A DNA stretch of 64,000 bases from Halosolutus gelatinilyticus (lineage in GTDB: Archaea > Halobacteriota > Halobacteria > Halobacteriales > Natrialbaceae): assembly GCF_023028105.1 (NCBI RefSeq), contig NZ_CP095491.1, positions 2,914,001 to 2,978,000 on the forward strand. Reading direction: 5' to 3'. The notes below the pieces were generated by a model that was not told the origin of the DNA, searched no databases, and saw only the letters and a list, made by a program, of their open reading frames with translations. The translations under genes and the position numbers were made by a program. Positions 10,551-51,537 of the stretch are shown here, piece after piece (the first letter of the stretch is position 1; each line of letters opens with the position of its first letter).

Positions 10551-10554
10551 GCTT

Positions 10555-11231: not shown

Positions 11232-11297
11232 TCAGCCAGTAATTCGGACTGCGTCGTAAAGGCCTTATCAACTGAATCGCACAACAACATTCTGGCG

Positions 11298-29625: not shown

Positions 29626-31647
29626 TCACCGCTCGTTCAGGGCGAGGTCTGTCGGCGGGGCGTCGGTTACCGCAACGTCGTAGGCTTCGATCTCGCTCCC
29701 GCCGAGGAACCAGGTTGCGTCGGACGGCGCCGCGATCGCGAGCGGTTCCGATCGGTAGTTGGCGATCCAGGTTAGTCCGTCGCGTCGCGCGAACCGGACC
29801 TGTTCCGGCAGCGGGTCGGCCGTCTCGCAGTCGGCTCGATCGAGCAGGTCCCCGACGAGCGCGCTCGCGAGATCGTCGTCGGGCCAGGTTCCCACGTAGG
29901 TGACGTTGCCGTCGCCGACGGGGTTGCGGACGATCGCCACCTCTCCGTCGGCGCGCTCGCCTTCGTACCGGCCCAGAACGTCGACGGCTTCGGCGGTCGG
30001 GGAGAGCCATTCGTTCCAGACGCGGCTGTCGAACCGCTCGCCGCCGTAGGAGATCGCACTCTCCAGTTCGGCCGGAACGCTCTCGTGTCGACGGATCTCG
30101 GCCCCGACCAGGTCGCGGAGCGGCCCCGGCTGGGGCGCGTCGTGGAGTTTGTTGTACGGATCCTTGACTCCCGAGCGCATCGTGACGAGAAGTTCGCCGC
30201 CGGCAGCGACGTAGTCGTCGAGGCGGGCCGCGAGTTCGTCGTCCGCGAGGTACAGCGTCGGCGCGACGATCGCGTCGTACCCGTCGAGGTCGGCGCGCGG
30301 GGGAACGACGTCGACCGTCACCGATCGTCGGCGGAGGGCGCGGTAGTAGGTCTCCAGGTGCTGCCAGTAGTCGAAGTCGGGCGTGTTGCGCTCGATCCCG
30401 ATCGCCCACGCGTTATCGTAGCTGTGGACGATCGCGACGGCGGCGTCGGGGACCGAGAGGCTATCGCCGACGGTCTCGCCGAGGTCGGCCAGTTCCCGCG
30501 CCGCCCGCGTTGCGTCCTGGAGTCCCGCGTCCGGCGCCCCGTCCTGCGTCAGGAGACCGCTGTGGTACTGCTCCTGGCCCATCCGGCACCGTCGCCACCG
30601 GAAGTACGAGACCACGTCGGCACCGTGTGCGACTGCGGAGTGTGCCCACAACCGCATCGCGCCGTCGCCAGGTTGGGGGGAGTACGGCGGCCAGTTGATG
30701 TCGCCGGGTTGCTGTTCCATCACCCACAGGGGCGAGCCGGTGGCGCTTCGGAAGAGGTCGTGGTCCAGGCCGATCTGGTCGGGATCGCCGACCCGGAGTT
30801 CGTCCCTGGAAACGGTCTCGCGCTGGGCCTGAACGTGACCGGTCGGGTAGGAGTCCCAGGACGCGAAGTCGAGGTCTGCGGAGAGGTCGTACGCGTCCAG
30901 CGCGTCGAAGTGGGACATGAAGTTGTGCGTGACGAACCAGTCGTCGTCGGCCTCGCGAAGGATCTCCGTCTGGAGGCGGTTGTACTCGACGACGCTGTCG
31001 CTCGAGAAGCGGTAGTAATCCAGCAATCGAGACGGGTGGTGGGACGCGGCCGTGTGGCGGGGCGGATCGACCTGCGCGAAGACGTTCAGGTCCTGGCTCC
31101 AGAAGGCGGTTCCCCACGCTTCGTTGAGCCGATCGATACCGTCGTACCGCTCGCGGAGCCACGTCCGGAACGCGCTCGCGCAGTCGTCGCAGTAGCACCG
31201 AACCGTTCCGTGACAGCCGAACTCGTTGTCCGTCTGCCAGCCGGCGATCGCCGGGTGATCCGCAAACCGGTCCGCCAGGGCGCCGACGATCCGTCGCGTT
31301 TCGCGTCGATAGACGGCCGAGTTGTAGCAGTAGTGCCGGCGGCTGCCGTAGTGTCTCGTCGTTCCGTCGGCCTCTTCCTGGAGGATTTCGGGGTGCTCGT
31401 CGACCAGCCACTTGGGCGGGGTCGCCGTCGGGGTACAGAGGACCGCCTGCATCCCGTGGTCGCCGATCAGCGTTATCGCCCGTTCCAGCCACTCGACGTC
31501 GAATTCGCCGGGTTCGGCTTCGATTCGGGACCAGGCGAACTCCCCCATCCGAACGTACTCGATTCCCGTTTCGGCCATTCGTTCGATGTCCTCTTCCATC
31601 CGCTCCGCCGGCCAGTGCTCCGGAAAGTAACAGACGCCGATACTCAT
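29626..31647 (-). CDS. GH42 beta-galactosidase
   Basis: A 673-residue enzyme of glycoside hydrolase family 42, related to haloarchaeal BgaH. It has a TIM barrel with acid/base E142 (QTDNEFGCHG) and nucleophile E311 (VMEQQPGDINW). The structural zinc site of the family is intact: C107, C151, C153 and C156. A trimerisation domain (about 390-600) and a small C-terminal beta domain follow. There is no signal peptide, so it should act in the cytosol on imported beta-galactosides. It is the last gene of the locus, 175 nt behind the LamG-GH2 gene. Confidence 0.93.
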   Translation of the reverse strand: MSIGVCYFPEHWPAERMEEDIERMAETGIEYVRMGEFAWSRIEAEPGEFDVEWLERAITLIGDHGMQAVLCTPTATPPKWLVDEHPEILQEEADGTTRHYGSRRHYCYNSAVYRRETRRIVGALADRFADHPAIAGWQTDNEFGCHGTVRCYCDDCASAFRTWLRERYDGIDRLNEAWGTAFWSQDLNVFAQVDPPRHTAASHHPSRLLDYYRFSSDSVVEYNRLQTEILREADDDWFVTHNFMSHFDALDAYDLSADLDFASWDSYPTGHVQAQRETVSRDELRVGDPDQIGLDHDLFRSATGSPLWVMEQQPGDINWPPYSPQPGDGAMRLWAHSAVAHGADVVSYFRWRRCRMGQEQYHSGLLTQDGAPDAGLQDATRAARELADLGETVGDSLSVPDAAVAIVHSYDNAWAIGIERNTPDFDYWQHLETYYRALRRRSVTVDVVPPRADLDGYDAIVAPTLYLADDELAARLDDYVAAGGELLVTMRSGVKDPYNKLHDAPQPGPLRDLVGAEIRRHESVPAELESAISYGGERFDSRVWNEWLSPTAEAVDVLGRYEGERADGEVAIVRNPVGDGNVTYVGTWPDDDLASALVGDLLDRADCETADPLPEQVRFARRDGLTWIANYRSEPLAIAAPSDATWFLGGSEIEAYDVAVTDAPPTDLALNER

Positions 31648-31822: not shown

Positions 31823-34800
31823 TCATCGGGTTCGGCCGGCGCCGTCCGGATCGGCTGACGCGTGTTCGCTCTCGCCGTTCGGAGCGTTCGCGTCACCGTC
31901 GATCACCTGGAGCGTAACGCTCCCCCGAAGGGTCTCGCCGGACGCCAGCGTCGGATCCTGGTCGACGACCGGGTGGCGGCTGAGCCAGCCGTCGGCGTTC
32001 GTGCCCGACAGCGATCGATCGAGGATCAGGAATTCGATGCTTTCGGAGCGGACCTGCGAGCGGACGTGTTGATCGCCGTCCGAACGAACGCCCAGCCCGT
32101 GCCCGCCGGCCGCCGTGAGGTCGGCCGCGTACACGTTCCGCTTCGTCCCGCGGAAGTCGTTCGATCCGTGCTTCGTTGCGTCGTTCTTCCAGGGCTGGCC
32201 GCTGCGGATACGGATCTCCTCGTGGTTCGGTCGGGATCCGTCCGGAAACGCGCACGCGGTGCCGCCGGGGCGACCAATGTGGGTGTCGGGGTAGACGCTC
32301 CACTGCGCGTCCCGGAGCCACGAGAGGGTCATCAGGTCGGTCGCGGTCGGCACCGCGAGGCCGACTTCGCGGGCGTCGACGGAGTCGTGCAACGCGAACT
32401 CGTACTCGACTTCGAGCCCGTCAGCGAGCGGGCGAAGCAGGACGGTCCCCGCGGCGTCGTCGTACTCGACGGCGATCGAGACGGCCGCGCCGTCCTCGGC
32501 TACGGTCACGTCGGCGACCGTCCGATCCGACAGTCGGTGGTCGATCGCGGACGCGTAGTCCCGCCCCGTCGACTGCTGGGTCGGCGTCAGTGCCAGTTCC
32601 GGGGCGTCGACGATCAACGGCGCGCCGTCAGGCGTCCTGACCTCGACGGCCCCACTCTCCCGGTCGATATCCAGGGAGTAGACATCGGTCGCGACCGACA
32701 GCGTCCCGTCGTCGTCGGCGAACGGCTCGGTTGCGGGTTCCGAGGGAATCTCGACTCGCGGGGATTCGGGCGTAACCACGATCCTCTCGATCGCGTGTCC
32801 CTCGGGATGCGTGACCGTCATCTCGAGGCGATCGTCCTCGACGGGGAGCGTCACCGTCGTCCTCTCGCCCGGCGGAACGTGGATCGGTCGCCGCCCCGAA
32901 CCGGGCGTCCCCTCGAACCGGATCGATCGATCGGCGAGGTCGACGAACTCGTGGCGATTCTCGATCGTCAGCGTCACGGCGTTGCCGTTGCCGCGCCACT
33001 CGGCGTCGGCGACCCGCACCGGCGAGTACACCTTCTTGACGTGCCAGTACTCGGGGCGGGACCGTCGATTGCGGTCGAGGAGTCCCCAGCGGTATTCGCC
33101 CCACTGTTCGAGGTGGTCGCCGCCCGCCCAGATAGCGGCGCCGGCGACCGAGTCGGCCGCCCGGCACTGCTCCCAGATCAGTTCGAAGGGGAGTCCCCAC
33201 TCGTCGCGGAGCCCCGGATCGGTCACCAGTTCCCGATCGTTGTAGCAGTACGTGTGGGCGGCCTCGTCGAACAGGATCGGCTCGTCCAGGTCGGCGTGCT
33301 CCTCGACCGTCGACCCGGTTCGGAAGGCGGGATAGTGGTGAGCGCGCACGTCGTAGACGTCGTGCCACGGATCGTCGGGATCGTACGCGTCGTGGTTGAA
33401 GATCGTCGGACGCGTCGGATCGAGTTCCGCCACCAGTCTCCCGGCGGCGTCGAACGCGTCGTACCACTCGGACTCGTTGGCGATCGACCAGAGACAGACC
33501 GACGCGCGGTTTTTGTCCCGTTCGACCATCTCAAGCGTCTGGCGGAGCACCACGTCAGGGTCGGGATCGCCGCGGCCGCGGCCGACGAACATGTGCGGCG
33601 CCTCCATCTCGACGACGATGCCGAGTTCGTCGCAGGCGTCGAGGAACGCCTCGGAGGTCGGGTGGTGGGCCGTCCGCACGTAGTTGACGTTCGCCTCCTT
33701 CAGGCGCCGCGCGTCCTCGCGGGTGATCTCGGCCGGCACGGCGTGACCGTGTTCGGCGAGGTGGATCTCCTCCCAGTTGACGCCCCGCAGCGTGACGGCC
33801 TCGCCGTTCAGGCGGAGCTCGTTCCCGACGACCGAAACGTCGCGGATACCGATGCGCTCGCTGATCGTTTCGGTCGTCCCGTCGGCCTCGATCGTCACGT
33901 CGACCGTGTACAGGCGCGGCTGCTCCGGATTCCACGGCTGCGGATCCGACGCCTCGAGTTCGAACGAGCATTCGCCTGACGAGCCGGCGTCGAGGGCCGA
34001 CACGGGCCGTTCGGCGGTCGCGACCGTCGCCCCCTCCGGATCGGTTAGCGTAACGGTGACGGTCGCCGACTCAACCCCCCTCGCGCCAGCGTTGCGTATC
34101 GCCGTCTCGACGGTTACGGCCGCCGACGACCCGCGAAGGCCGGTCGTGACGTCGCACGCCGCGACGTGAACGTCGGGGACCGAGAGCAATGTCACGTCCC
34201 GCGTGATCCCGCCAGTGACGTTCTGCCAGCCCATGTCGTCCGCCGGCGACTGCTGGGCGACCGCCACGGCCAGCGCGTTCGCGCCGTCCGCGGTCACCGC
34301 ATCCGTGGCGTCGACCTCGAACGGGGTGTAGCCGCCGACGTGGTGACCGACTTCGGAGTCGTTGACAAATACGCGCGCCTCGCTGTAGACTGCGTCGAAG
34401 CGCAGGAGGAGCCGCCCGTCGGCCCACCCGTCGGGAACCTCAAACTCTCGGCGGTACCAGCCGAGCGTTCCGTCAGGCGGGTACCACTCCTCGGAACCGC
34501 TCGGGACGGCGTAGCCGTCGTAGGCCCACTGGCCCGGCACGTCCTCGTCGTGCCACTCGACGCCGAGGTCCTCGATCGTATCGTAGTCGAGCCACAGAAC
34601 CGCGCCGTCCGGCACCGCCTGAAATCCGCGCTCGATCCGATCGTCGGAAAGCGCGGTATCGAACGCCCGCGTCGACGCGACGGCGACGTCGAGATCGGAC
34701 CCGCCGACGACGAACCGCGCGTCGCTACTCGCCAGGTCGGTGGCGTCGTGCGTCGACGAACCCACCCGAGCGCCGTCGACGTAGAGGCGCAACTCGTCGC

Positions 34801-36034
34801 GGGCGACGACGACGGTAACCGTGTGCCACTCGCCCGTCGAAAGATCGCCGCCGCTGACGCTCGGCCAGTCCCCGGCGTCGGTCTGCAGCCAGAAGCTGAC
34901 GGTTCCGTCGTAGATACCCAGCCCGAACTGTTCGGCGCCGTCGGCGACGGCGCTGTGGCCCCTGTCCAGCACCGGTCCGTCGCCCCCGTCGTACTTCACC
35001 GTCGTCCGGAGGGTAAAGCCCGGCGACGAGAAGTCCAGGGTTTCGTCGGCGGCCACCGAGACGTAGCCGTCGCCGGAGACGTCGACGCCCCGACCGTCGC
35101 GTCCCGGGACGATCGCCGGATCGCCGTACAGCACGCCGTCGTTACCCGCGCCGGACTCGTCCGGGGTCACCCCGCTTTCGACTTCGTTCAGCGGTAGCCA
35201 GGCGACGGCGCTGTCCGGAACGCGATCGAATCCGCGATCGATCCGGTCCGTCGAGAGCACCGTGTCGAACGCTCGAAACGAGTCGACCACGGGAGACCCG
35301 TGGTCGTCGTTCCCCGAGTCGTAGCCCAGGTGGAGCGGCGAGTCGGCGCTGGGAAGCGACGAGAAGTCGTGGCTCGTCGCTCCGATCTCGGTCGTCCCGA
35401 GGTAGAGTCTGATCTCGCTGTCGTCGACGACCAGCGTCGTCGTGTACCAGTGCCCGCGGCTGAGGTCGCCGGCGTCGATGCCGGGCCAGTTCCCGCCGCC
35501 CTCCGTCCAGAAGGACAGCTGGCCGCCCCAGACGCCCAGCGCGTACTGATCCCCCTTCGCATAAAGCGGGCCGTCGCCGGCGTATTTGAACGTCAACTGG
35601 ATCGAAAATCCGGGCTCGGTAAAGTCGACGCCGTCGGCGTCACCGACCGCGACGTAGCTCTCGTCGGCGAGGTCGACCGCCCGTTCCGTCGGATCCGTGA
35701 CGATCGGCGGCTCGTTCCGAAGCGTTCCGTCGTTGCCGGCCCCGGAGAGATCCGGTGTGACGCGCCTCGACGAGGACGACGGCGGTCGCTCGCCGGGCGA
35801 GAGCGCGAACTCCCACGTTCCGTTCAGCGACCGCGTTCCCCCCGCGTCGGTCGTGGCGGGACGGGGCGTCAACTGTATCGACGAGAGCACGTCGTCGTAT
35901 TCGTTCACCGGCGCTACGCTGGCACCCCCGATCGGGAGCGTCGCACCCAACGCGGCGCCCGAAACGGCCGAAAGTACGGTTCGACGGTGGAGAGACGGCT
36001 CTCCGATGCCGCGGTTGCTGTTATCTCTTGACAT
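31823..36034 (-). CDS. Tat-exported GH2 beta-galactosidase-like enzyme with two nested LamG domains
   Basis: A 1403-residue secreted glycosidase. R17-R18 (LHRRTVLS) and the following hydrophobic stretch form a Tat signal. The GH2 N-terminal sugar-binding domain starts at 'SLNGTWEFALSPGERP' (about 69-85), is interrupted by two tandem LamG/concanavalin-like domains (about 90-275 and 280-475, each beginning with SGAGNDG), and resumes at 'EWHDEDVPGQWAYDG'. Then come the GH2 immunoglobulin-like domain and the barrel, with acid/base E854 (WSIANESEW) and nucleophile E924 (ILFDEAAHT). A C-terminal beta region follows. The substrate is probably a galactoside polymer or glycan, inferred from context. 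ATG 36034 is preferred; A/T-rich promoter DNA (tttatta, about 36066-36075) lies upstream. Confidence 0.85.
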   Translation of the reverse strand: MSRDNSNRGIGEPSLHRRTVLSAVSGAALGATLPIGGASVAPVNEYDDVLSSIQLTPRPATTDAGGTRSLNGTWEFALSPGERPPSSSSRRVTPDLSGAGNDGTLRNEPPIVTDPTERAVDLADESYVAVGDADGVDFTEPGFSIQLTFKYAGDGPLYAKGDQYALGVWGGQLSFWTEGGGNWPGIDAGDLSRGHWYTTTLVVDDSEIRLYLGTTEIGATSHDFSSLPSADSPLHLGYDSGNDDHGSPVVDSFRAFDTVLSTDRIDRGFDRVPDSAVAWLPLNEVESGVTPDESGAGNDGVLYGDPAIVPGRDGRGVDVSGDGYVSVAADETLDFSSPGFTLRTTVKYDGGDGPVLDRGHSAVADGAEQFGLGIYDGTVSFWLQTDAGDWPSVSGGDLSTGEWHTVTVVVARDELRLYVDGARVGSSTHDATDLASSDARFVVGGSDLDVAVASTRAFDTALSDDRIERGFQAVPDGAVLWLDYDTIEDLGVEWHDEDVPGQWAYDGYAVPSGSEEWYPPDGTLGWYRREFEVPDGWADGRLLLRFDAVYSEARVFVNDSEVGHHVGGYTPFEVDATDAVTADGANALAVAVAQQSPADDMGWQNVTGGITRDVTLLSVPDVHVAACDVTTGLRGSSAAVTVETAIRNAGARGVESATVTVTLTDPEGATVATAERPVSALDAGSSGECSFELEASDPQPWNPEQPRLYTVDVTIEADGTTETISERIGIRDVSVVGNELRLNGEAVTLRGVNWEEIHLAEHGHAVPAEITREDARRLKEANVNYVRTAHHPTSEAFLDACDELGIVVEMEAPHMFVGRGRGDPDPDVVLRQTLEMVERDKNRASVCLWSIANESEWYDAFDAAGRLVAELDPTRPTIFNHDAYDPDDPWHDVYDVRAHHYPAFRTGSTVEEHADLDEPILFDEAAHTYCYNDRELVTDPGLRDEWGLPFELIWEQCRAADSVAGAAIWAGGDHLEQWGEYRWGLLDRNRRSRPEYWHVKKVYSPVRVADAEWRGNGNAVTLTIENRHEFVDLADRSIRFEGTPGSGRRPIHVPPGERTTVTLPVEDDRLEMTVTHPEGHAIERIVVTPESPRVEIPSEPATEPFADDDGTLSVATDVYSLDIDRESGAVEVRTPDGAPLIVDAPELALTPTQQSTGRDYASAIDHRLSDRTVADVTVAEDGAAVSIAVEYDDAAGTVLLRPLADGLEVEYEFALHDSVDAREVGLAVPTATDLMTLSWLRDAQWSVYPDTHIGRPGGTACAFPDGSRPNHEEIRIRSGQPWKNDATKHGSNDFRGTKRNVYAADLTAAGGHGLGVRSDGDQHVRSQVRSESIEFLILDRSLSGTNADGWLSRHPVVDQDPTLASGETLRGSVTLQVIDGDANAPNGESEHASADPDGAGRTR

Positions 36035-36222: not shown

Positions 36223-37350
36223 TCAGCGCCCCGCTTGCACGTACTGGTCGAGATCGACGTCGGTGTCGGTCGTCTTGGTCTTGACCGACTCCGTCGTGTC
36301 GGCATCGAAGAGATAGAGATCGTCCTCGTCGAAGCCGAACGTGACGGTCATCCCCTCGTCGGGGTGGACTTCGCTGTCGATGCGGGCGGTCAGGTCGATC
36401 TCGCCCATTTTGGCGTACAGGAAGTTCTCGTTACCCATCTGCTCGACGACGGTGACCTCGCTGGGCATGCTTCCGTCGGAGACGAGATCGAGGTCCTCCG
36501 GTCGCACGCCGACGCGGACTCGGTCCCGACCGTCGACGAGCGAGGGGTCCTCGAGCGCGTACTCGAACCCGCCTGGCCCGCGGAGGACGGCCCCGTCCAC
36601 GTCGGCGGAAAGGAGGTTGATGCTCGGACTGCCGATGAAGCCCGCGACGAACTCGTTGGCCGGCGATCGATAGACCTCGCTTGCCGTGCCGACCTGCTGG
36701 AGTTCGCCCCCGTTGAGGACGGCGATGCGATCGCCCATCGCCATCGCCTCGGTCTGATCGTGCGTCACGTACGCCGTGGTCACGCTCAGTTCCTGTTGGA
36801 GTTCCTGGAGTTCGGTCCGCATCGTCGAGCGGAGCTTGGCGTCCAGGTTCGACAGCGGCTCGTCCATGAGGAACACTTCGGGATCGCGGATGATCGCCCG
36901 CCCGAGCGCGACTCGCTGTTGCTGGCCGCCGGAGAGCTCCCTTGGCTTCTGATCGAGTAGATCCTCGATCCCGAGCAGTTCCGCGACGGAGTGAACCTCG
37001 GCGTCGATCTCATCGGACGACAGTTTGGTCGAGAGGCGGAGCGGGAACCCGATGTTCTTCCCCACGGTCATGTGGGGGTACAGCGCATAGTTTTGGAACA
37101 CCATCGCGACGTCCCGCTCTCGCGCGCGTTGGTCGGTCACGTCCTGTCCGTCGAATTCGATGGCGCCGTCCGTCACGTCTTCTAACCCGGCGATACATCG
37201 GAGCGTGGTCGTCTTTCCGCAGCCGGACGGACCGACGAAGACGAGAAACTCCCCGTCCTCGATCGTCAGGTCGAAATCGTCGACTGCGACGATCTGTTCA
37301 CCGCCGTCACCGTACTCCTTGCGTAAATTCGTAATGTCGATTGTTGCCAT
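36223..37350 (-). CDS. MalK/UgpC-type sugar ABC transporter ATPase
   Basis: A 375-residue nucleotide-binding subunit. Walker A is 'GPSGCGKTTTLR', signature 'LSGGQQQRVALGRA', Walker B 'VFLMDEPLSNLDAKLR', switch 'VTHDQTEAM', followed by TOBE/MOP-like regulatory domains (about 240-360). This is the CUT1 family ATPase that drives oligosaccharide or glycoside uptake. I use ATG 37350; a GTG nine bases upstream is possible. It is the last gene of the transporter operon, 12 nt after the second permease. Confidence 0.94.
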   Translation of the reverse strand: MATIDITNLRKEYGDGGEQIVAVDDFDLTIEDGEFLVFVGPSGCGKTTTLRCIAGLEDVTDGAIEFDGQDVTDQRARERDVAMVFQNYALYPHMTVGKNIGFPLRLSTKLSSDEIDAEVHSVAELLGIEDLLDQKPRELSGGQQQRVALGRAIIRDPEVFLMDEPLSNLDAKLRSTMRTELQELQQELSVTTAYVTHDQTEAMAMGDRIAVLNGGELQQVGTASEVYRSPANEFVAGFIGSPSINLLSADVDGAVLRGPGGFEYALEDPSLVDGRDRVRVGVRPEDLDLVSDGSMPSEVTVVEQMGNENFLYAKMGEIDLTARIDSEVHPDEGMTVTFGFDEDDLYLFDADTTESVKTKTTDTDVDLDQYVQAGR

Positions 37351-37362
37351 TGTGAGCACACC

Positions 37363-38199
37363 TTATTCTTTGACCGCTCCCGAGAGGATTCCCTTGATGA
37401 AGTACTGCTGCATGGTCAGGAACACGACGAATATCGGCGTCACGGCGAGCGACGTGGCGACCATGATCTGGTCGAAGTAGACGCGCTGTTGGTCGACGAG
37501 ATCCGCCAGCGCGAGCGGGATCGTGTACACCTCCGGATCCTGCAGGACCACCAGCGGATAGAGGAACGCCTGCCACTGGTTGAGAAACAGGATGATCGAC
37601 AGGGCCGCGAGCGACGGGAGCATGGTCGGGAGCGCGATCTTGTAGTACAGCTGGAACTCCGTCGCACCGTCCATCCGCGCCGACTCCAGCAGCGAGTCGG
37701 GGATCGCCTTCATGTTCTGGCGCATCAGAAAGATCCCGAGCGGGTTCGCCGCCCACGGCAGGATCACTGCCAGGAACGAGTTGGTCCAACCGATCTGGGT
37801 TATCAGCAGGTACAGCGGGATGATCAGCAGCTGGATCGGCAGGACCAGCGTCGCCAGAATGAAGTAGAACAGGGGTTCCTTGAACCGGAACTCGTACTTC
37901 GCGAAGGCGAACCCGGCCATCGAACAGAGGATCAGCGACAGGATCGTGTACGAGACCGCGATGATGATGCTGTTTTGCATGCTGTTGACGAAGTCGACGT
38001 TCTCCTGAAGCGCCCGGAAGTTCTCGAGCCAGTGGGCCCCCGGAATCAACCGTGGCGGCCACGAGAAGAACTCCGACTGCGGGATCGTCGCGGCGACGAT
38101 CATCCAGTACAGCGGGATCATCACGAGCACCACCAGCGTCAACAGGAAGATGTAGCTTCCGAACTTCCACAGCGCTTCGTCGCGTTCTTGCGATCGCAC
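37363..38199 (-). CDS. Sugar ABC transporter permease (MalG/UgpE-like)
   Basis: A 278-residue membrane permease with six helices. The EAA loop that contacts the ATPase is 'LESARMDGATEFQLYYKIALPTMLP'. It belongs to the CUT1 MalG-type group. The start is GTG at 38199, sharing one base with the TAG of the upstream permease, so the two are translationally coupled; there is no ATG nearby. It forms the channel with the next permease. Confidence 0.93.
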   Translation of the reverse strand: MRSQERDEALWKFGSYIFLLTLVVLVMIPLYWMIVAATIPQSEFFSWPPRLIPGAHWLENFRALQENVDFVNSMQNSIIIAVSYTILSLILCSMAGFAFAKYEFRFKEPLFYFILATLVLPIQLLIIPLYLLITQIGWTNSFLAVILPWAANPLGIFLMRQNMKAIPDSLLESARMDGATEFQLYYKIALPTMLPSLAALSIILFLNQWQAFLYPLVVLQDPEVYTIPLALADLVDQQRVYFDQIMVATSLAVTPIFVVFLTMQQYFIKGILSGAVKE

Positions 38200-39218
38200 T
38201 ACTTCTCACCTCCGTACTTAATCTGGACGATGGACATAGCACTAACGATTATCACGAGCAGCACCGAGACGGCGCTGGCGTATCCCAGGTTGAGCTGGAG
38301 GAACGCCTGATTGTAGATGTACTGGACGACGGTGATCGTCGCGTTCGACGGGCCGCCGCCGGTGATGATGTACGGTTCGGAGAAGATCTGGAAGGTCCCG
38401 ATCGTCGAGGAGACGACGACGAACAGCAACACCGGTCTGATCTGCGGTAGCGTCACGTATCGGAACTTCTGCCACCGCGTCGCACCGTCGATCTCCGCGG
38501 CCTCGTACAGCGGCTGCGCGACCGTCTGGAGGCCGGCCAGCAGGATGATCGTGTTGTACCCCAGCCAGCGCCACGTGACCGCGATGACGAGCGTCATCCG
38601 CGCGCCCCACGCGCTACCCAACCACGCGACCGGCGAGAAGCCGACCTGCGTGAGGAGGTAGTTGACGAGGCCGACCTGATCGTTGAACAGCAACAGGAAG
38701 ATCGTCGAGTACGCGACCAGTCCGGTCGCTACGGGGAGCGCGATCAGCGTCCGGAACAGCCCCTTCGCTCGGATGAACTTCGAGTCCAACACGAGCGCGG
38801 TCGCCAGTCCCAGGGTCACCATCAGCGGCACCTGGACGAAGAAGATGAACGCCGTGTTGAACAGGGACCGGTGGAACAACGAGTCCCTGAAGATCAGCCG
38901 TTCGTAGTGCGACAGCCCGACGAACTCCAGGTTCGCGATGGTCGGGATCGTGATTTCGAGCGGACCCAGGGTGATCGTGAGCAGTATGTCGTTCGAAACG
39001 CCGACGTAGCTAAAGAACGAGAGGTAGAGCGTGTACGCCGTCGGGAACAGCAGGAAGATCCCGAAGAGGATGAAAAACGGCGAAATATACGCGTACGGAA
39101 GCCCCGGGATCGTCGGGACGATCTCGGAGACGTCTTGGCGAGCGTATCGAATCCGATCGGCGAGCTGTCGATACGTTCTCGACGTTCGGACCGTGGACTG
39201 GATGGCGGTACGAACCAT
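38199..39218 (-). CDS. Sugar ABC transporter permease (MalF/UgpA-like)
   Basis: A 339-residue permease with a cytoplasmic N-terminus of about 45 residues and six or more helices. The EAA motif is 'YEAAEIDGATRWQKFRYVTLPQIRP'. It is the MalF-type partner of the next gene. A 259-nt gap, including a 14-bp palindrome, separates it from the solute-binding protein gene, so the two parts of the operon may be expressed at different levels. Confidence 0.93.
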   Translation of the reverse strand: MVRTAIQSTVRTSRTYRQLADRIRYARQDVSEIVPTIPGLPYAYISPFFILFGIFLLFPTAYTLYLSFFSYVGVSNDILLTITLGPLEITIPTIANLEFVGLSHYERLIFRDSLFHRSLFNTAFIFFVQVPLMVTLGLATALVLDSKFIRAKGLFRTLIALPVATGLVAYSTIFLLLFNDQVGLVNYLLTQVGFSPVAWLGSAWGARMTLVIAVTWRWLGYNTIILLAGLQTVAQPLYEAAEIDGATRWQKFRYVTLPQIRPVLLFVVVSSTIGTFQIFSEPYIITGGGPSNATITVVQYIYNQAFLQLNLGYASAVSVLLVIIVSAMSIVQIKYGGEK

Positions 39219-39447
39219 CGGCGTCAGCGCCCCCCACTCGTCGGCCTCTCGTCCAGACGTCGCCGACCTACGGTCGGCGCCGCGGGGACCGGTCCGCCCG
39301 GAGCGTCCAGTTGCGATTCGTCCGTGCTGTCGAACGACGGCCGATCGGCGGCGCTTCGAACGATCCGGTACCGCGACGTCACCGGGGGTGTTCTGGCACC
39401 GGTTCTCGATTTTTCTGAATCCATGGTTAGCGGTGTCAAAGGCGTGT

Positions 39448-39461
39448 ACGTAGATCTACGT
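39448..39461 (-). terminator. Palindrome acgtagatctacgt downstream of the SBP gene
   Basis: A perfect 14-bp palindrome 16 nt past the stop of the solute-binding protein gene. In RNA it could form a short hairpin that partially terminates transcription or protects the upstream mRNA end, which is a common way to make more binding protein than permease. It could equally be a DNA operator. I cannot tell which from sequence. Confidence 0.3.
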
Positions 39462-39477
39462 CAAATAGTTTCGGACG

Positions 39478-40809
39478 TTACGCCAGCTCACGGCCGGTTC
39501 GGTCGGCGACGGTCTCGGCGGCGTTCCGGACCGCGTCCTCGGGGGATTTGTTCCCGTCGAGCATGTTCCCGAGTTCGGTCTCGATCGCGTCCTGCACCTC
39601 CGGGGTGTCCGTCGTGTAGCGATACGGCTCGATCTCTTCGGCGACCTCCGCGAACAGGCTGAAGATCGGCTGTCCGCCGTAGAAGTCCTGCTCCTGGTCG
39701 TAAATATCGGCCTCGTAGGCCGACGTCAGCGATGGGAAGAGCCCGTACTCTTCGAGCATCGCGTTTTGTACCTCGGGCGTGGTCATCGCGTACAGACAGT
39801 AGTCGAACGCGCGGTTGACCGTCTCCCCGTCGTCGATCTGGGACGGAATCGCCAGGTTCGATCCGCCGCGATTCGACGCGCGGGTGCCGCCCGATTCGAA
39901 CGCGGGGAGCTTGTATACGCCCCAGTTACCGGACGTGTCCTTCAGCTCGGCTCGCAGGGTCCCATCCATCCACGCCGCGCTCGGGAGGGAGGCCAGCGTG
40001 CCCTCGGAGAACGACGTGAACCACCCGCCGGACCACAGCTCGATCCGGGTCGTGATTCCGGCGTCGTTCATGTCCCGGATGAGCGTTGCGACGCGCACGC
40101 TCTCTTCGCTGTCGACGTTGACCGCGCCGTCCTCGGTGAACGCTTGCCCGCCGAGCTGTCGCAGGAGCATCCGCCACAGCTGGGACATCTCCTGGGGTGG
40201 AAGGTTGATCATCGCCACGTCGTTCGGGAGCTGCTGGCCGGCCTCGATGAAGTCGTCCCACGTCTCGATGGCCTCGACGTCGATGCCGGCGTCCTCGTAT
40301 CGGTCCCGCTTGTAGAAGACGCCGGTGGGACCGATGTCCCACGGGATCGCGTAGTAGGCGTCCTCGTAACTGACGGTTTGCCACTTGCCCTCGACGATCT
40401 CCTCGACGATCCCCGCCTCTTCGATCCGGTCCGTGAGGTCGCGAAGCCCGCCGATGCTGGCGTAGTTCGTCACGTCGTAGTTCTGAACCGCGGAGAAATC
40501 GGGCGCACCGGTGCCGCTCGTAATCGCGGTCTGGAACCGCTGTTCCCAGGCATCGCCGCCCAGCTCTTTGACCGTCACGTCCGCCCCTTCCTCGTCGTTG
40601 TACCGCTTAGCGGCGTCCTGTAGCGCTTTCGCTGCGACGTTCCAGGCCCAGCCGTTCGCGGAGGGGGCCAGCTCTGACGTCGACGGTCCGGAGCTATCGT
40701 CGGCATCGCCGCCGAAACTAACGCAGCCTGCGAGACCAGCGGTGCCCGCGATCCCGAGCGCTTTGAGCAGCTGTCGACGCCGAGAATTCGGGTCTGAAGA
40801 CTCTGTCAT
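39478..40809 (-). CDS. Extracellular sugar-binding lipoprotein (family 1 SBP)
   Basis: A 443-residue binding protein. The N-terminus has a Tat motif (R10-R11-R12) and lipobox LAGC with lipid-attachment Cys C29, so it should be exported folded and anchored to the outer face of the membrane. The rest is a two-lobe bacterial-type family 1 SBP (PDFSAVQNYDVTNYASIGGL, DIGPTGVFYKRDRYEDAGID). It delivers the sugar to the permeases encoded downstream. A strong promoter-like element with an adjacent palindrome precedes it. The ligand is probably a galactoside, from context. Confidence 0.93.
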   Translation of the reverse strand: MTESSDPNSRRRQLLKALGIAGTAGLAGCVSFGGDADDSSGPSTSELAPSANGWAWNVAAKALQDAAKRYNDEEGADVTVKELGGDAWEQRFQTAITSGTGAPDFSAVQNYDVTNYASIGGLRDLTDRIEEAGIVEEIVEGKWQTVSYEDAYYAIPWDIGPTGVFYKRDRYEDAGIDVEAIETWDDFIEAGQQLPNDVAMINLPPQEMSQLWRMLLRQLGGQAFTEDGAVNVDSEESVRVATLIRDMNDAGITTRIELWSGGWFTSFSEGTLASLPSAAWMDGTLRAELKDTSGNWGVYKLPAFESGGTRASNRGGSNLAIPSQIDDGETVNRAFDYCLYAMTTPEVQNAMLEEYGLFPSLTSAYEADIYDQEQDFYGGQPIFSLFAEVAEEIEPYRYTTDTPEVQDAIETELGNMLDGNKSPEDAVRNAAETVADRTGRELA

Positions 40810-40840: not shown

Positions 40841-40860
40841 TATATTAAAATACCGGTATT
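40841..40860 (-). promoter_or_regulatory. SBP/transporter promoter with palindrome AATACCGGTATT
   Basis: On the minus strand a TATA-like ttaatata (40841-40848) lies about 35 nt before the SBP ATG at 40809. Directly upstream of it is a perfect 12-bp palindrome, aataccggtatt (40849-40860), at the BRE position. A regulator bound there would block or recruit TFB/TBP. It does not match the IclR operator candidate. Confidence 0.5.
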
Positions 40861-40950
40861 AACAATTATGAGGGAGAGGCGGTACGATCGTGCCGCTAAT
40901 CGACGCTGAAACGCCCGCGATCGGACCCGAAACCCGCGCGTGATGCTCGG

Positions 40951-42880: not shown

Positions 42881-43690
42881 TCACCCCCGGCGGTAGTCCA
42901 GGTACGGCTCGTCCTGCATCACCTGCGAGCGGCCGCCGTCGATCAAGACGGTTTCGCCGGTGATGAACGCCGCGTCATCGCTGGCCAGAAACGCCGCGAG
43001 ACCGGCCACGTCGGCGGGCGTTCCGAGACGGCCGACCGGGTGAATCTCCTCGGTGTACTCGTAGTCCTCGCCCAGTTCCTCGCGGGTTCGTTCGATTTCG
43101 ATCCACCCGGGATTGATGGTGTTGACCGTGATCCCCTCGGGACCGAGTTCCAGCGCCATCGCCCGAGTCATGCCGTTTATCCCGGCCTTGATCGCGTTGT
43201 AGGGGAACAGGCCGGGCATCGTGAGGAACGCGTGGTTCGAGGAGGTGTTGAGGATCGTCCCGCCCTCCGGCACGTGCTCGACCGCGTGTTTCGCACAGAG
43301 CCAGAACGATCGAAAGTCCGTCTCGAGGACGAACTCCCAATCGTTCACGGTCGCTTCCTTCACGGTCGTCTCGGTCTGCACGCCGGCGTTGTTCACGAGC
43401 GTATCGATCCGGCCGTACTCGTCGACGGTGTGTTCGACGAGCGCCCGTATCTCGGCCGGGTCTCGCATGTCCGCGCGGACGAATACCGCCTCGCCGCCCC
43501 GCGATTCGATGTCGTCGGCGACGCGCTTCCCGGCGTCCGCGGAGCGGCCCGTTACGACGACGGCCGCGCCTTCGGCGGCGAAGCGACGGGCGACTCCTTC
43601 GCCGATTCCGCGGGTCGACCCCGTGACGAGCGCGACGGTATCCTCGTGTCTGTTCTCGACGGCGTTCGCGGTCGGATCGTCGAAAGCCAT
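42881..43690 (-). CDS. SDR dehydrogenase, candidate galactose/glucose 1-dehydrogenase
   Basis: A 269-residue classical short-chain dehydrogenase. The cofactor loop is 'TGSTRGIGEG', 'NNAGVQ' follows, and the catalytic Ser (TSSNHA), Tyr and Lys (YNAIK) are present. It is similar in style to glucose 1-dehydrogenase/KDG dehydrogenase SDRs. Its place 52 nt downstream of dgoD makes D-galactose 1-dehydrogenase the natural guess, since that is the first step of the De Ley-Doudoroff route, but that is inference from context. An A/T-rich element (about 43713-43720) could give it its own promoter. Confidence 0.88.
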   Translation of the reverse strand: MAFDDPTANAVENRHEDTVALVTGSTRGIGEGVARRFAAEGAAVVVTGRSADAGKRVADDIESRGGEAVFVRADMRDPAEIRALVEHTVDEYGRIDTLVNNAGVQTETTVKEATVNDWEFVLETDFRSFWLCAKHAVEHVPEGGTILNTSSNHAFLTMPGLFPYNAIKAGINGMTRAMALELGPEGITVNTINPGWIEIERTREELGEDYEYTEEIHPVGRLGTPADVAGLAAFLASDDAAFITGETVLIDGGRSQVMQDEPYLDYRRG

Positions 43691-43742
43691 GCGCGGACTC
43701 TCGCCGCGGCCACCAAATAATCACCGCCCCGACGACGGTCCG

Positions 43743-44897
43743 TTACCACTCGGCGACGCTGCCGTCGTCGTGTCGCCAGACCGGATTGTGCCAGTCGTGC
43801 CCGACTTCGGCCTGCTCGCGGACGTGGTCCTCGTCGATTTCGATGCCCAGACCGGGCCCGCTCGGGATTCGAACGTAGCCGTCCTCGTAATCGAACACGG
43901 ACGGATCCGCGAGGTAATCGAGCACGTCGCTCGTCTCGTTGTAGTGGATGTTCAGACTCTGTTCCTGGATGAACGCGTTTGGGGAGCAGGCGTCCACCTG
44001 CAGGCAGGCGGCCAGCGCGATCGGGCCGAGCGGGCAGTGCGGAGCCATCGCCACGTCGTAGGCTTCGGCCATCGCCGCGATCTTCGTGACCTCGGTGATG
44101 CCGCCGGCGTGGCTGAGGTCGGGCTGGATCACGTCGACCGCGCCGCTCTCGAAGATTTCCTTGAAATCCCACCGGGAGTACAGCCGTTCGCCCGTCGCGA
44201 TCGGCGTCGTGGTGTGGGAGGCGATCGTCGGCAGCGCGTCGTTGTGTTCCGGCAGGACCGGCTCCTCGACGAACATCGGGTCGTACGGTTCCAACCCCTC
44301 GACCAGCCGCTTGGCCATCGGCTTCGAGACGCGTCCGTGGAAGTCCACGCCGACGTCCACCTCGTCGCCGACGGCGTCGCGAACCTCGCGAAGTCGGGTG
44401 ACGGCAGCGTCGATCGTCGCCGGATCGTCGACGCGTTCGATCTCCTCGGTGGCGTTCATCTTCAACGCCGTGAAGCCCGCCTCGACCTGTTTCCGGGCCT
44501 GATCGGCCACGTCGGACGGGCGATCGCCGCCGATCCACTGGTAAACCCGGATCCGATTCCGCGCCGCACCGCCGAGCAGTTCGTACACCGGCACGTCCAG
44601 GCGCTTCCCTTTGATATCCCACAGGGCCTGGTCGATTCCCGCGATCGCGCTCATCAGGACCGGCCCGCCCCGATAGAAGCCGCCGCGGTACATCGTCTGC
44701 CAGTGATCCTCGATTCGACTCGGATCCTCGCCCAGCAGGTAGGTGTCGAGCAGCTCCTCGACCGCCGTTTCGACGGTTTCGGCGCGTCCCTCCACGATCG
44801 GCTCGCCCCAGCCGACGGTGCCGTCGGCCGCCTCGAGACGCAGGAACAGCCATCGCGGTGGTACTTCGAACAGCTCGTAGTCGGCGATCTCGGTCAT
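43743..44897 (-). CDS. dgoD: D-galactonate dehydratase
   Basis: A 384-residue enolase-superfamily enzyme, colinear with E. coli DgoD from 'PPRWLFLRLE' to the C-terminal 'NPVWRHDDGSVAEW'. Metal ligands D185, E211 and E237, acid H187 (DFHGR) and the base dyad H287 (APHCPLGP) with D260 are all present. It dehydrates D-galactonate to 2-keto-3-deoxygalactonate in the cytosol, the second oxidative step of galactose breakdown. A proximal TATA-like element (about 44929-44936) lies about 32 nt upstream, and two copies of the putative IclR operator lie about 400 nt upstream. Confidence 0.95.
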   Translation of the reverse strand: MTEIADYELFEVPPRWLFLRLEAADGTVGWGEPIVEGRAETVETAVEELLDTYLLGEDPSRIEDHWQTMYRGGFYRGGPVLMSAIAGIDQALWDIKGKRLDVPVYELLGGAARNRIRVYQWIGGDRPSDVADQARKQVEAGFTALKMNATEEIERVDDPATIDAAVTRLREVRDAVGDEVDVGVDFHGRVSKPMAKRLVEGLEPYDPMFVEEPVLPEHNDALPTIASHTTTPIATGERLYSRWDFKEIFESGAVDVIQPDLSHAGGITEVTKIAAMAEAYDVAMAPHCPLGPIALAACLQVDACSPNAFIQEQSLNIHYNETSDVLDYLADPSVFDYEDGYVRIPSGPGLGIEIDEDHVREQAEVGHDWHNPVWRHDDGSVAEW

Positions 44898-45598: not shown

Positions 45599-48500
45599 TT
45601 ACTCTCTCGATCGCGGGATATCGTTCCGCAGCTGTATTTCGCGGGCGAGGACGGCGGATTCCGTCTCGTCGCGATAGTACGGGCGGATGGTGAGTCCGAA
45701 CGAGGCCGGTTCGGGCATCACCCGATGTTCGGGAAGCGGTTTGACCGGCGTCCCCCCGACGCCCGAGACGGCGACGTCGACGAACAGTCTCGTTCCGTCC
45801 GCCGCGACGAGGTCCGAGAGGCTGGCGGCTTCAGCGAGGTTCTCGTACCGATCCAGTCGGACGTTGAGGGGGCGGTCTCCGACGACCGCGAACCCCGCGG
45901 TCGGGCCGGTCAAACTCGCCCAGCGAACGTCCGTTTTGTTCCCGTTATCCGACGGGAGACGGTACGGAACGAATTGGTCGTCGACGCTACCGGCGTACCG
46001 CCCGATCGCGCTGCCGGTCTTTCGGTCGGGATAGGTCTCCTCGGGACCGCGACCGAACCACTCGAAATCGGTCGCCGACGGTGGGACGTCGAACTGCACG
46101 CCGAGTCTCGGCAGCCACGACGACAGGGAGTCACGCAGCGCCGAGGTTGGCGCCACGTCGATCGTCACTACGACGGTTCCGGTTCCGTCCACGTCGTAGT
46201 CGTAGTCGACCTCGAACAGCCCGATTCCGTCGGGGTTGCGGGCGATCGTCGCCACGGACAGGTGCGCGGTTCCGTCGGCCGTCCTCCCCACGGCGTGTTC
46301 GACGACCGTCTGTTCGAGGTCGTGCAGTCCGAGCGACAGCCACTCCGACTCGTTGTCGTACCCCCACTCGGTATCGCTATCGACGACCCCCTCGTTGGGG
46401 ACCGTCGCCCGGAACGCGCCGAACAGCGGCCCGTCCCGTGCGACGACCGCGTCCCCGTATCGGAACTCGCGGAAACAGCCCCGCTCCAGATCGAAGCGAT
46501 AGCGGAACCGATCGCCGGCGACGGTCACCGCCGTCTCGCTCTCCTTGATGGTAACGTGACCGCCGTCGGCCGTCGGGATCGACGACGGCTCCGGAAGTTC
46601 GATCGGCACGGCGAACTGCTCGAATCCGATTTCGTGGCCCGCCGCCGCCCAGTCGGTCTCCTCGGGCAGGCGAACGCGGAGCGTCAAGTGGCACTCGGTG
46701 CCAGGAGGGAGCGTCGATCGGTCGAACGGGACGATCACTCCTCGCGTTCGCGATGGGGGGACGTCGAGGCGGAGCCGACCCGACTGGACGGGGTTCCCGT
46801 CGACGGTCAGCTCCCACGTCGTCTCGAACGCGGAGAGGTTCGTAACGGCGTGGTGGTTCGTAACCGCGAGTACGCCCTCCCGGATCGCGACGGCCTCGAA
46901 GGCGAACGGCTGCTGTGTCTTCTTCAACTGCCGGAGCTCGGGTTGCGGGGACAGATCCGAGAAGACGACGCCGTCGAGCAGGAAGGGGTCATCGTCGAAC
47001 CACCACTCGTCCGCGTTCCCGTCGGGAACCACCTCCCCCGCGAGCGTCTGATTGGTCCACTCCCAGACGAACCCGCCTTGGAGGCCGTCGATCTCTCGAA
47101 CCAGCTCCCAGAACGCGTCCTGCAGGCCGAGGCTGTTGCCCAGCGCGTGCGCGTATTCGCCCATGATCAACGGGCGGTCCTCGACCGCGCTGTGTTGGAC
47201 GAGCGTGTGGGGGACCGGATACCGCGGCCCCGAGATGTCGGCGAACGGGGCCGTGCCGGTCATGTTCTCGTGGTACTCGTCGTAGGGTGCCGCGCCCGAG
47301 CCCTGGTGGTAGACGAACCGGGTGCCATCGCGCTCGCGGGCGTAGGCCGCCATCTCCCTGTGCGGCGCCCCTTCCCCGGCCTCGTTACTGGTGCTCCAGG
47401 CGAAGATCGACGCGAAGTTCTTGTGGTGTTCGACCATCCCCTCGAACCGCCGGACGAACGATCGATGGAAGGCGGGCGCTTCGTTGACGAAATTCATGTT
47501 GAAGTGCGTCTCGACGTTGGCTTCGTCGACGACGTACAGCCCCAGTTCGTCCGCGAGTTCGTACACCGGGAGGTCGTTCGGGTAGTGGGCGGTCCGAATG
47601 GCGTTGACGTTGTGTCGTTTCAGCATCCGCAGTTCCGTCAGGACGCGGTCGAACGGTACCGTTCGACCGGTCTCGGGATCGTGTTCGTGACGGTTGATCC
47701 CGCGAACGGTCATCGGCTCGCCGTTGACGAGCACCCGCCCGTCCTCGATTTCGAACTCCCTGAAGCCGACCCGCTCCGGGACGGCCTCGACGACCCGACC
47801 GTCGGCGCCCCGGAGTTCCAGCACCAGATCGTAGAGCGTCGGCCGTTCCGCGGACCAGGCGGCGGGCGAGGTGACGGTCGTTCGGAGCGTCACCTCGGCG
47901 TCGTCGGCCGGTACGGCGGTCGCTTCGAGCGTCGTCACTTCGGTTCCGCCCTCGTCGAAGAGCCGTCCGGCGATCGTCCATGGGTCGGTGCTCTCGACCG
48001 CGCCGCCGAGATCGGCCTCGACCGTCAGCGTCGCGTCCTCATATGCGTCGTCGAACGTCGTCTGGACGACGTAGTCCCGGAGGTGAACCGGCGGCTTCGA
48101 GTAGAGATAGACGCTGCGGAAGATACCGCTGAAACGGAGCATGTCCTGGGTCTCCAGGTAGCTTCCGTCCGAGAACCGAAACACCTGGACCGTGAGCGTG
48201 TGGGTGCCTCCGACGTCGAGAGCGTCGGTCACGTCGAACTCGGAGGGCGTCATCGACCCCTGGTCGTACCCGACGTACTCGCCGTCTATCCAGACGAAAA
48301 ACGCGGATTTCACCCCCTCGAAGTGGAGGAACGTGCGTCGATCCTCGCCCCAGGTCGTCGGTACGTCGACGGTTCGACGGTACGTGCCGACCGGATTGAA
48401 CTCCTCGGGCACGTTCGGCGGCTCCGGTTCCGACTCGACTTCGGGGATTCGCTCCCAGGTCAGCGCGTGGTTTCGGTAGATCGGCCGATCGTAGCCGTCG

Positions 48501-48799
48501 AGTTGCCACACGCCGGGAACGGAGATCGCGCCCCAATTCGCCGCGTCCTCGAGTCGATCGGGGAGCTCAGCCGGCCGCTCGGCCCAGCAGAACGACCACT
48601 CGCCGTTCAGGAGTCGAACGTACTTCGACTCGGCCCATCTCGACTCGGGTTCGGTCAGCCGATCGGCGGCGGCCATCGCTGCCGCGGTCGATTCGTACGG
48701 CACCGTCGGGACGTGCGGCGGTTCGGTGTTTTCCGTAAGATTTGTCGGATTTTCTATATATTCTGCTAATCCGGCTAGTTGCGCTGGCTCTCGTGACAC
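45599..48799 (-). CDS. lacZ: GH2 beta-galactosidase LacZ, GTG start
   Basis: A 1066-residue full-length LacZ-type enzyme: GH2 jelly roll (about 60-235), immunoglobulin-like domain (about 240-345), TIM barrel with acid/base E473 (SNEAGEG) and nucleophile E548 (MGEYAHALGNS), a linker beta domain, and the large C-terminal beta-galactosidase small-chain domain (about 780-1055). There is no signal peptide, so it should hydrolyse lactose-like beta-galactosides in the cytosol. The start is GTG 48799, with tcacctc/GAGGTGA 6 nt upstream and a TATA element about 30 nt upstream; at that spacing the transcript may be leaderless, so the SD may be chance. Confidence 0.94.
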   Translation of the reverse strand: MSREPAQLAGLAEYIENPTNLTENTEPPHVPTVPYESTAAAMAAADRLTEPESRWAESKYVRLLNGEWSFCWAERPAELPDRLEDAANWGAISVPGVWQLDGYDRPIYRNHALTWERIPEVESEPEPPNVPEEFNPVGTYRRTVDVPTTWGEDRRTFLHFEGVKSAFFVWIDGEYVGYDQGSMTPSEFDVTDALDVGGTHTLTVQVFRFSDGSYLETQDMLRFSGIFRSVYLYSKPPVHLRDYVVQTTFDDAYEDATLTVEADLGGAVESTDPWTIAGRLFDEGGTEVTTLEATAVPADDAEVTLRTTVTSPAAWSAERPTLYDLVLELRGADGRVVEAVPERVGFREFEIEDGRVLVNGEPMTVRGINRHEHDPETGRTVPFDRVLTELRMLKRHNVNAIRTAHYPNDLPVYELADELGLYVVDEANVETHFNMNFVNEAPAFHRSFVRRFEGMVEHHKNFASIFAWSTSNEAGEGAPHREMAAYARERDGTRFVYHQGSGAAPYDEYHENMTGTAPFADISGPRYPVPHTLVQHSAVEDRPLIMGEYAHALGNSLGLQDAFWELVREIDGLQGGFVWEWTNQTLAGEVVPDGNADEWWFDDDPFLLDGVVFSDLSPQPELRQLKKTQQPFAFEAVAIREGVLAVTNHHAVTNLSAFETTWELTVDGNPVQSGRLRLDVPPSRTRGVIVPFDRSTLPPGTECHLTLRVRLPEETDWAAAGHEIGFEQFAVPIELPEPSSIPTADGGHVTIKESETAVTVAGDRFRYRFDLERGCFREFRYGDAVVARDGPLFGAFRATVPNEGVVDSDTEWGYDNESEWLSLGLHDLEQTVVEHAVGRTADGTAHLSVATIARNPDGIGLFEVDYDYDVDGTGTVVVTIDVAPTSALRDSLSSWLPRLGVQFDVPPSATDFEWFGRGPEETYPDRKTGSAIGRYAGSVDDQFVPYRLPSDNGNKTDVRWASLTGPTAGFAVVGDRPLNVRLDRYENLAEAASLSDLVAADGTRLFVDVAVSGVGGTPVKPLPEHRVMPEPASFGLTIRPYYRDETESAVLAREIQLRNDIPRSRE

Positions 48800-50403: not shown

Positions 50404-51537
50404 TCACCACTCGACGAAACTGCCGTCGTTGTACCGGCGGATCGGCGTCCGCCAGTCGCTTCCCTTTCCCGCGTGTTCTCGAACCCCTTCCTCGTTTACC
50501 GCGATTCCCAATCCCGGTTCGTCCGAGAGGGAGACGCGACCGTTCTCGCTCCGAATGACGTCCACGTTGTCGACGTAAGCGTCGATGTAGCGCTCGCCCA
50601 GCGCGGGCTGCTGGACGGCGTTGGGGATGTGGTGACTGAGCTGCGTACAGGCGGCGTAGGCGATCGGACCGACAGAGCAACTGATCATCAGCGTGGCCCC
50701 GTAGGTCTCGGCCATCGAGGCGATGTTCGTAATTTCGGTGATTCCGCCGGCGTGAGAGATGTCCGGCTGTGCGATGTCCAGGCGGTGCTGTTCTAAGTGC
50801 GATCGGAACTCCCACCGCGAGTACAACCGTTCGCCGTACGCGATCGGGATGTCGTGGTACGACGACCGCTCCAGCACTCCGAGGTGCTCGGGCCGAACCG
50901 GTTCTTCGACGAACAGCGGGTCGTACTCCTGCAGTCGCGAGAGCAGCCGCGACGCCATGCTCGTCGAGATGTGTCCGTGGAGATCGATTCCGATGTCGAT
51001 CTCCCGCCCGACAGCCTCTCGAGCCTCGTCGAGGTACTCGCAGATCCTGTCGATATCGACCGTCGATTCCATCGGCGCGGTCTGATACGCCGTCAGGAGT
51101 TTGAGCGTAGTGTACCCCTCGTCGACCGCATTCGACGCCAGTTCGGAGATCTGGCCGACGCCGTCCGGAACGATCTTCTTGTGCAACGGGACGTGATCGC
51201 GAGTGCGACCCCCCAGCAGGTCGTAGATCGGCTCGTCGGAGTATTTGCCCTTGATGTCCCACAGCGCCTGGTCGATGCCGGCGATCGCCGACATGAGGAT
51301 CGGGCCGCCGCGGTAGAAGCCGCCGCGATACATCGTCTGCCAGTGATCCTCGATTCGACTCGGATCCTCGCCCAGTAGATAGCCGTCCATCAGTTCTTCG
51401 ACCGCGGCTTTGACGGTCTTGGCGCGTCCCTCGAGGATCGGTTCGCCCCATCCGACCACCCCGTCGCTGGTTTCGATCTTGAGGAAGAGCCACCGCGGGG
51501 GAACCTTGAACAGTTCGTAGTCGACGATCCGTGCCAT
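50404..51537 (-). CDS. DgoD-like enolase-superfamily protein lacking the catalytic His base
   Basis: A 377-residue paralogue of the dgoD product, highly similar in the capping domain (PPRWLFLKIE, GEDPSRIEDHWQTMYRGGFYRGGP in segments) and C-terminus (SFVEW). Metal ligands D185, E211 and E236, acid H187 and dyad D259 are kept. However, the 'APHCPLGPIA' segment is 'MISCSVGPIA', so the base His is Ser286, and the substrate loop 'YQWIGGDRP' is 'LHKKIVPDG'. It therefore cannot use the DgoD mechanism unchanged; it may act on another acid sugar, do different chemistry, or have a sensing role. A leaderless promoter (tcttaag, about 51561-51567) precedes it. It is the first gene of the minus-strand locus. 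Confidence 0.85.
   Translation of the reverse strand: MARIVDYELFKVPPRWLFLKIETSDGVVGWGEPILEGRAKTVKAAVEELMDGYLLGEDPSRIEDHWQTMYRGGFYRGGPILMSAIAGIDQALWDIKGKYSDEPIYDLLGGRTRDHVPLHKKIVPDGVGQISELASNAVDEGYTTLKLLTAYQTAPMESTVDIDRICEYLDEAREAVGREIDIGIDLHGHISTSMASRLLSRLQEYDPLFVEEPVRPEHLGVLERSSYHDIPIAYGERLYSRWEFRSHLEQHRLDIAQPDISHAGGITEITNIASMAETYGATLMISCSVGPIAYAACTQLSHHIPNAVQQPALGERYIDAYVDNVDVIRSENGRVSLSDEPGLGIAVNEEGVREHAGKGSDWRTPIRRYNDGSFVEW

Follow-up and report, generated by a model that had tools for sequence, protein, structure and literature searches.

Binding modules placed inside another folded domain have been described for several glycoside hydrolases (GH). In GH10 xylanases of the Pm25 and Xyn10C family, two tandem modules of carbohydrate-binding module (CBM) family 4 lie between strand 3 and helix 3 and help on complex biomass, and the GH13 amylase SusG, cited in the same work, carries a CBM58 inserted in its domain B (PMC7848910, available part of the text). 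For GH3 enzymes with an inserted PA14 domain, the accessible portion of PMC6987092 describes at least two independent insertions in the family and PA14 domains that can influence the form of the active site. More generally, domain insertion is frequent and is seen in 20% of multidomain proteins (PMC13114784, partial text). Here we describe a gene encoding a GH2 enzyme in a 64,000-nucleotide stretch of the Halosolutus gelatinilyticus genome (NZ_CP095491.1, positions 2,914,001 to 2,978,000; hereafter the window). Sequence comparisons confirmed that two LamG_3 units interrupt the N-terminal jelly-roll domain of this enzyme, as a first-pass annotation of the window had proposed. The accompanying statement that such modules are usually found at the ends of proteins holds with qualification, since nested CBMs in glycosidases are documented (PMC7848910, in the same part). 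No description of LamG nested in GH2 was found in the literature searched, most subscription journals lying outside its coverage.

The domain layout of the gene is given in Table 1. Residue numbers count from M1, encoded by the ATG at 36034; the protein record used for the Pfam and PDB comparisons (P0001) starts at S2 and runs one lower. Pfam matches follow the order Laminin_G_3 (twice), Glyco_hydro_2_N, Glyco_hydro_2 and Glyco_hydro_2_C, with PF02837, PF00703 and PF02836 all exceeding their cut-offs in the order usual for GH2. In the intact protein the Glyco_hydro_2_N match covers profile positions 57-169 only and the start of the profile is absent. The missing first strand, SLNGTWEFALS (residues 69-79, within SLNGTWEFALSP at 69-80), was found about 400 residues upstream of that match. 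Between them lies an insert of approximately residues 85-486, in agreement with the interval first assigned to it (34579-35782), and the host sequence picks up at residue 493 with EWHDEDVPGQW. At 45.3 and 58.0 bits, each LamG unit clears the Laminin_G_3 cut-off (27.6 bits) on its own. The units are 44% identical over 196 columns, both open with SGAGNDG (residues 97-103 and 294-300), as had been noticed in the first pass, and they end with AFDTVLSTDRIDRGF (unit 1) and AFDTALSDDRIERGF (unit 2).

The strongest indication that the leading strand belongs to the GH2 domain comes from relatives that lack the insert. In genome G029 the match runs over query residues 13-78 and then 485-1376, with a gap of 3 bases and 66% identity over the main part; the junction is the same in G026 (62% identity over the main part). 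A relative in G340 and a GH2-annotated gene on the Halomontanus rarus plasmid NZ_CP119797 are likewise insert-free, with the strand joined directly to the post-insert part, and identity to the insert-free relatives overall is 60-66%. An insert-free relative (P0004, residues 64-517) aligns to Escherichia coli LacZ, beginning shortly ahead of the LNGxWxF motif. Between this motif and GWYRR, the four carriers of the insert have a spacing of 455-458 residues, vs 42-57 in seven genes of the same GH2 subfamily without an insert there. Consistent with this, the score of the spliced protein against PF02837 rose from 70.3 bits (profile 58-169) without the first strand to 79.6 bits (profile 2-169) with residues 61-80 joined. 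Chance is excluded, because the units resemble each other and four genomes share the architecture. That an assembly or frame artefact fused two genes is scarcely conceivable, as the reading frame is unbroken and the same architecture recurs in three other genomes.

A different topology would result from strand exchange, in which the first host strand has joined LamG unit 1 and the trailing strand of unit 2, AVLWLDY, has replaced it in the GH2 jelly roll. One MAFFT run that included the whole leader set the TWEFALS strand of insert-free proteins opposite AVLWLDY, and in the L021 protein the PF02837 match begins at profile position 23, near the AVLWLDY strand. When rows were trimmed to start near the motif, however, all five MAFFT modes tried placed it in register, and LNGTW is retained in 4/4 carriers. 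Putting the trailing strand of unit 2 in place of the first strand gave 70.1 bits against PF02837, no gain compared with the 79.6 bits obtained with the host strand. Structure models also argue against an exchange. Both AlphaFold models (model 1, residues 44-1080, pLDDT [predicted local distance difference test] 65, pTM [predicted template modelling score] 0.38; model 2, residues 65-640, pLDDT 78, pTM 0.56) confidently fold the two LamG units complete with their own trailing strands (276-281 and 478-483). The units, trailing strands included, superpose collinearly on the solved LG domain of PAPP-A, unit 1 of model 1 over 168 residues at 2.2 A and unit 2 over 170-171 residues at 2.4-2.5 A, and because they fold well and match this domain they seem, in the models, to be complete without the host strand. 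We thus regard strand exchange as very unlikely. The units also superpose on solved LG and lectin jelly rolls, with Z up to 19.6, as expected of a concanavalin A-like jelly roll, a likeness of fold that implies no function; LamG-like jelly rolls filled the fold searches, among them those of laminin, PAPP-A and clostridial toxin binding domains, again as resemblance of fold only. No GH2 chains appear among the fold-search matches listed, which is not evidence against GH2.

Table 1. Features of the LamG-containing GH2 gene and of its neighbourhood, in window coordinates
Feature	Position	Strand	Basis
Whole gene, GH2 enzyme with nested LamG pair	31823..36034	(-)	1403 amino acids; open reading frame (ORF), translation, Pfam
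Leader with twin-arginine motif, residues 1-42, RR at 17-18	35909..36034	(-)	By eye; like leaders in P0002, P0003 and L052
First host strand of GH2 N-terminal domain, residues 68-80	35795..35833	(-)	Contiguous with host in insert-free relatives; splice test
LamG unit 1, residues 92-284, including trailing strand AVAWLPLNE	35183..35761	(-)	PF13385, 45.3 bits; confident in both models
LamG unit 2, residues 285-486, including trailing strand AVLWLDYD	34577..35182	(-)	PF13385, 58.0 bits; confident in both models
Remainder of GH2 N-terminal jelly roll, residues 487-620	34175..34576	(-)	PF02837, profile 57-169
GH2 immunoglobulin-like (Ig) domain	33842..34171	(-)	PF00703
GH2 TIM barrel	33014..33835	(-)	PF02836; aligned with solved GH2 enzymes
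C-terminal region specific to the haloarchaeal subfamily	31826..33013	(-)	Strong matches in 9/392 genomes, own included
GH42 beta-galactosidase, locus partner	29626..31647	(-)	PF02449
Sugar ATP-binding cassette (ABC) transporter: ATPase, two permeases, binding protein	36223..40809	(-)	Profile matches for ATPase and binding protein; permeases from ORFs, by eye
Short-chain dehydrogenase/reductase (SDR) dehydrogenase and galactonate dehydratase	42881..44897	(-)	NF010624, 688.7 bits (cut-off 311)
LacZ-type GH2 without LamG	45599..48799	(-)	Profile matches
Second galactonate dehydratase	50404..51537	(-)	NF010624, 460.9 bits (cut-off 311)

We searched 392 sampled genomes of the order with its own C-terminal part. 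Matches were found in 12 genomes, nine of them strong and holding 12 genes. The full nested form is present in the window genome, Halorubrum trapanicum (L021/L051), Candidatus Halobonum tyrrellensis (L022/L053) and the genome of L052, so that the same nested order, which the first pass had suggested seeking in other haloarchaea, occurs in three further genomes; the four belong to three families. Several galactose-locus partners lie near the gene in 4/4 carriers, ABC transporter genes among them in 4/4 and galactonate dehydratase in 3/4 within the stretch read. Around the genes of an insert-free clade (L054, L071, L072 and L098) no galactose neighbourhood was seen in the stretches read; L098 adjoins a mannonate dehydratase and a RICIN-domain protein.

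In a tree of the host built with the insert columns left out, this insert-free clade is sister to the window gene and nested within the carriers (support 92/94), with L051 joining next (84/90). In the LamG tree, second units group together (100/100) and first units do so at 82/44 only; first and second carrier units fall in one clade with a unit from L056 (100/99), which is sister to the first units (99/91). As first and second units form separate groups, the two-unit insert predates the split of the carriers. We also weighed a history in which the insert-free clade is primitively free and the four carriers, as a single clade, gained the insert once at a later point, with no loss. Constraining the carriers to a single clade gave a p-AU (approximately unbiased test) of 0.087, which leaves room for it, but the best tree interleaves them, only 4% of bootstrap trees keep the carriers together, and the LamG position groups place the pair before their divergence, making such a history unlikely. 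From these trees, a single gain was probably followed by one clean loss, in a clade whose genes lie away from the galactose locus. A TIxDxxxEW segment shared by carriers and the insert-free clade was considered as a scar of LamG loss and dropped; host GH2 domains commonly carry a similar segment at that place.

The LamG unit of L056 is of separate interest. This region holds tandem GH2 paralogues (4246-8058 and 8177-11449), by galactonate dehydratase and GH42 genes, one copy with LamG at the junction of the Ig domain and the TIM barrel plus an acidic linker, the other without. Judged from the LamG tree and these positions, the same LamG lineage occupies two different sites within one enzyme subfamily.

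A wider search with LamG unit 1 alone gave matches in 33/392 genomes. All 30 loci opened, that of the window gene included, encode GH2 in the same frame. Seven more regions with weak or unlocated matches were opened, and GH2 is encoded in L129, L130, L132 and L135 and not in L131, L133 or L134. Among plasmid records, through which bacterial GH2 enzymes were sampled, 11 match the insert, every one haloarchaeal. Ten carry a GH2 annotation; the other is unannotated and corresponds in length to the contig of L069, which encodes GH2. By site, the 46 aligned units fall in the N-terminal jelly roll (8), the Ig/TIM junction (1), the TIM-barrel loops before strand 8 (18, one relabelled by eye) and after strand 8 (3), and domain 5 (16). 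In L059 the Pfam TIM and Bgal_small_N matches are split in line with the LamG sites. The LacZ-type GH2 proteins of L057 and L058, about 1775 amino acids long, each have a single LamG unit in the TIM barrel and a tandem pair in domain 5. In L062 (G179) a LacZ-type LamG-GH2 gene is split between two frames, has a His/Gly-rich stretch where the LamG lies, and looks frameshifted.

An AVLWYDFDE-like strand trails the unit in 44/46 cases (38 by pattern, 6 by eye), the exceptions being the unit at site B and the broken-frame L062; the pattern was written after the units had been viewed, and site labels and strand counts were partly set post hoc. The strand stands ahead of the unit in seven cases, six of them tandem second units and one at site B. 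In the free-standing haloarchaeal LamG proteins L133 and L134 it lies in front of 4/4 units and behind none, by eye. Because the strand trails nested units but precedes free-standing ones, nested LamG appears mostly to be a circular permutant. Site B is an exception, being nested and unpermuted, and L131 is another, being permuted in a non-GH2 protein. The latter (L131:1278-3821) looks exported, has a permuted LamG followed by an NPCBM domain, and departs from the otherwise GH2-only pattern. The permuted order may not be unique to haloarchaea, since PAPP-A aligns collinearly with the trailing strand included. Chances seem to us evenly balanced that LamG is here a plug-in specific to the haloarchaeal lineage, mostly permuted, inserted at some five GH2 sites, moved within the subfamily and cleanly losable, and thus a portable and reversible means of re-aiming an exported glycosidase from inside its fold.

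The window gene sits in a galactose locus, and a beta-galactosidase role, in keeping with the galactoside substrate first suggested, fits these predicted neighbours. The substrate may be polymeric, and the LamG pair may lie by the active-site entrance, as the first pass also proposed. The region from 29626 to 51537 contains three distinct galactosidase-type enzymes (GH42, LamG-GH2 and LacZ-type GH2) and two galactonate dehydratases. Within it, the longest ORF at 40859-41743 is an arginine-rich shadow frame; the probable real gene is 40951-41703 (-), similar to AP_endonuc_2 sugar isomerases. NCBIfam beta-galactosidase equivalogs all match the LamG-GH2 protein below their cut-offs (GalA, 234 vs 900 bits). 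Two glutamates, E854 (NES; 33473-33475) and E924 (DEAAH; 33263-33265), align with the catalytic glutamates of solved GH2 enzymes and are the probable acid/base and nucleophile, roles that we assign by analogy with LacZ. The probable nucleophile is followed by Ala (33260-33265), vs Tyr in the other four aligned rows, with a possible effect on activity. A leader with the motif of a Tat (twin-arginine translocation) signal, as reported earlier, is visible by eye in 4/4 carriers and would fit export.

Taken together, we think it fairly likely that the gene encodes an exported beta-galactosidase-type GH2 enzyme in which the LamG pair was inserted in the loop after the first N-terminal jelly-roll strand and which works as follows. 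The GH2 fold would close around the insert, and the two LamG units, both complete with a trailing strand of their own, would bulge out as an independent, putative glycan-binding head. After Tat export, the pair may tether the enzyme to an extracellular glycan that bears galactose, from which the TIM barrel would remove terminal galactose; the freed sugar could then enter by the neighbouring ABC transporter and be burned through the galactonate route. Conceivably, a nested binding head is held at a more fixed angle to the catalytic barrel than one on a flexible tail would be.

Several observations weigh against this proposal. The host strand is not seen packed in the GH2 domain in either model, with pLDDT <50 in model 1 and about 64-70 in model 2. 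Residues 73-79 do form a strand in model 2, the region where the host resumes is poor, and both models are weak around the GH2 domain. Support for the earlier assignment of the leading strand to GH2 comes from sequence rather than from structure prediction. Insert-free subfamily members also occur in galactose-type loci (L055, beside a similar transporter and a LacZ-type GH2, and the insert-free L056 copy), so the insert is not required there, and the other L056 copy has its LamG at another site. The LamG pair might also be a structural or adhesion element, for example for S-layer or protein docking or for stabilisation in brine. LamG folds bind proteins as well as glycans, and among solved structures the closest in sequence are LG domains of laminin and neurexin and one protein with an S-layer domain. 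Still, the near-confinement of the lineage to GH2 (30/30 opened loci and 11/11 plasmid records) suggests a role tied to catalysis, and we consider a non-glycan function somewhat unlikely.

The enzyme and its relatives form a natural experiment on module insertion inside a folded domain: some carry the insert, others at 60-66% identity lack it, one has a module of the same LamG lineage at another site, and several are from cultured haloarchaea. How a nested module affects binding and catalysis can be approached here by simple deletion. Automatic annotation as a GH2 TIM barrel protein masks what is a recurrent nested LamG architecture in haloarchaeal glycosidases.

Of the described systems, as far as the available parts of their sources allow comparison, the GH10/CBM4 xylanases likewise carry two binding modules in tandem inside a single fold of an exported glycosidase, with copy number and type varying among relatives. 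Those enzymes are bacterial, with a TIM-barrel host and CBM4, whereas the present enzyme is archaeal and has LamG units inserted in a GH2 N-terminal jelly roll. SusG likewise has a binding module nested in an extracellular glycosidase, but a single one, of another family and in another host fold. The GH3/PA14 enzymes share the nested module and differ in both families, and a position over the active site has been modelled for PA14 in GH3 only. Nearer in lineage are haloarchaeal GH2 enzymes of the LacZ type, such as L059, in which LamG lies in the TIM barrel and domain 5 and which have the same LamG lineage, permuted order and GH2 host; their insertion sites differ from that of the window gene, and their deposited annotation names GH2 only. 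Nested binding modules in glycosidases, as the accessible literature describes them, are thus already known, and the LamG pair in an archaeal GH2 jelly roll is a fresh variant of that principle rather than a fresh principle.

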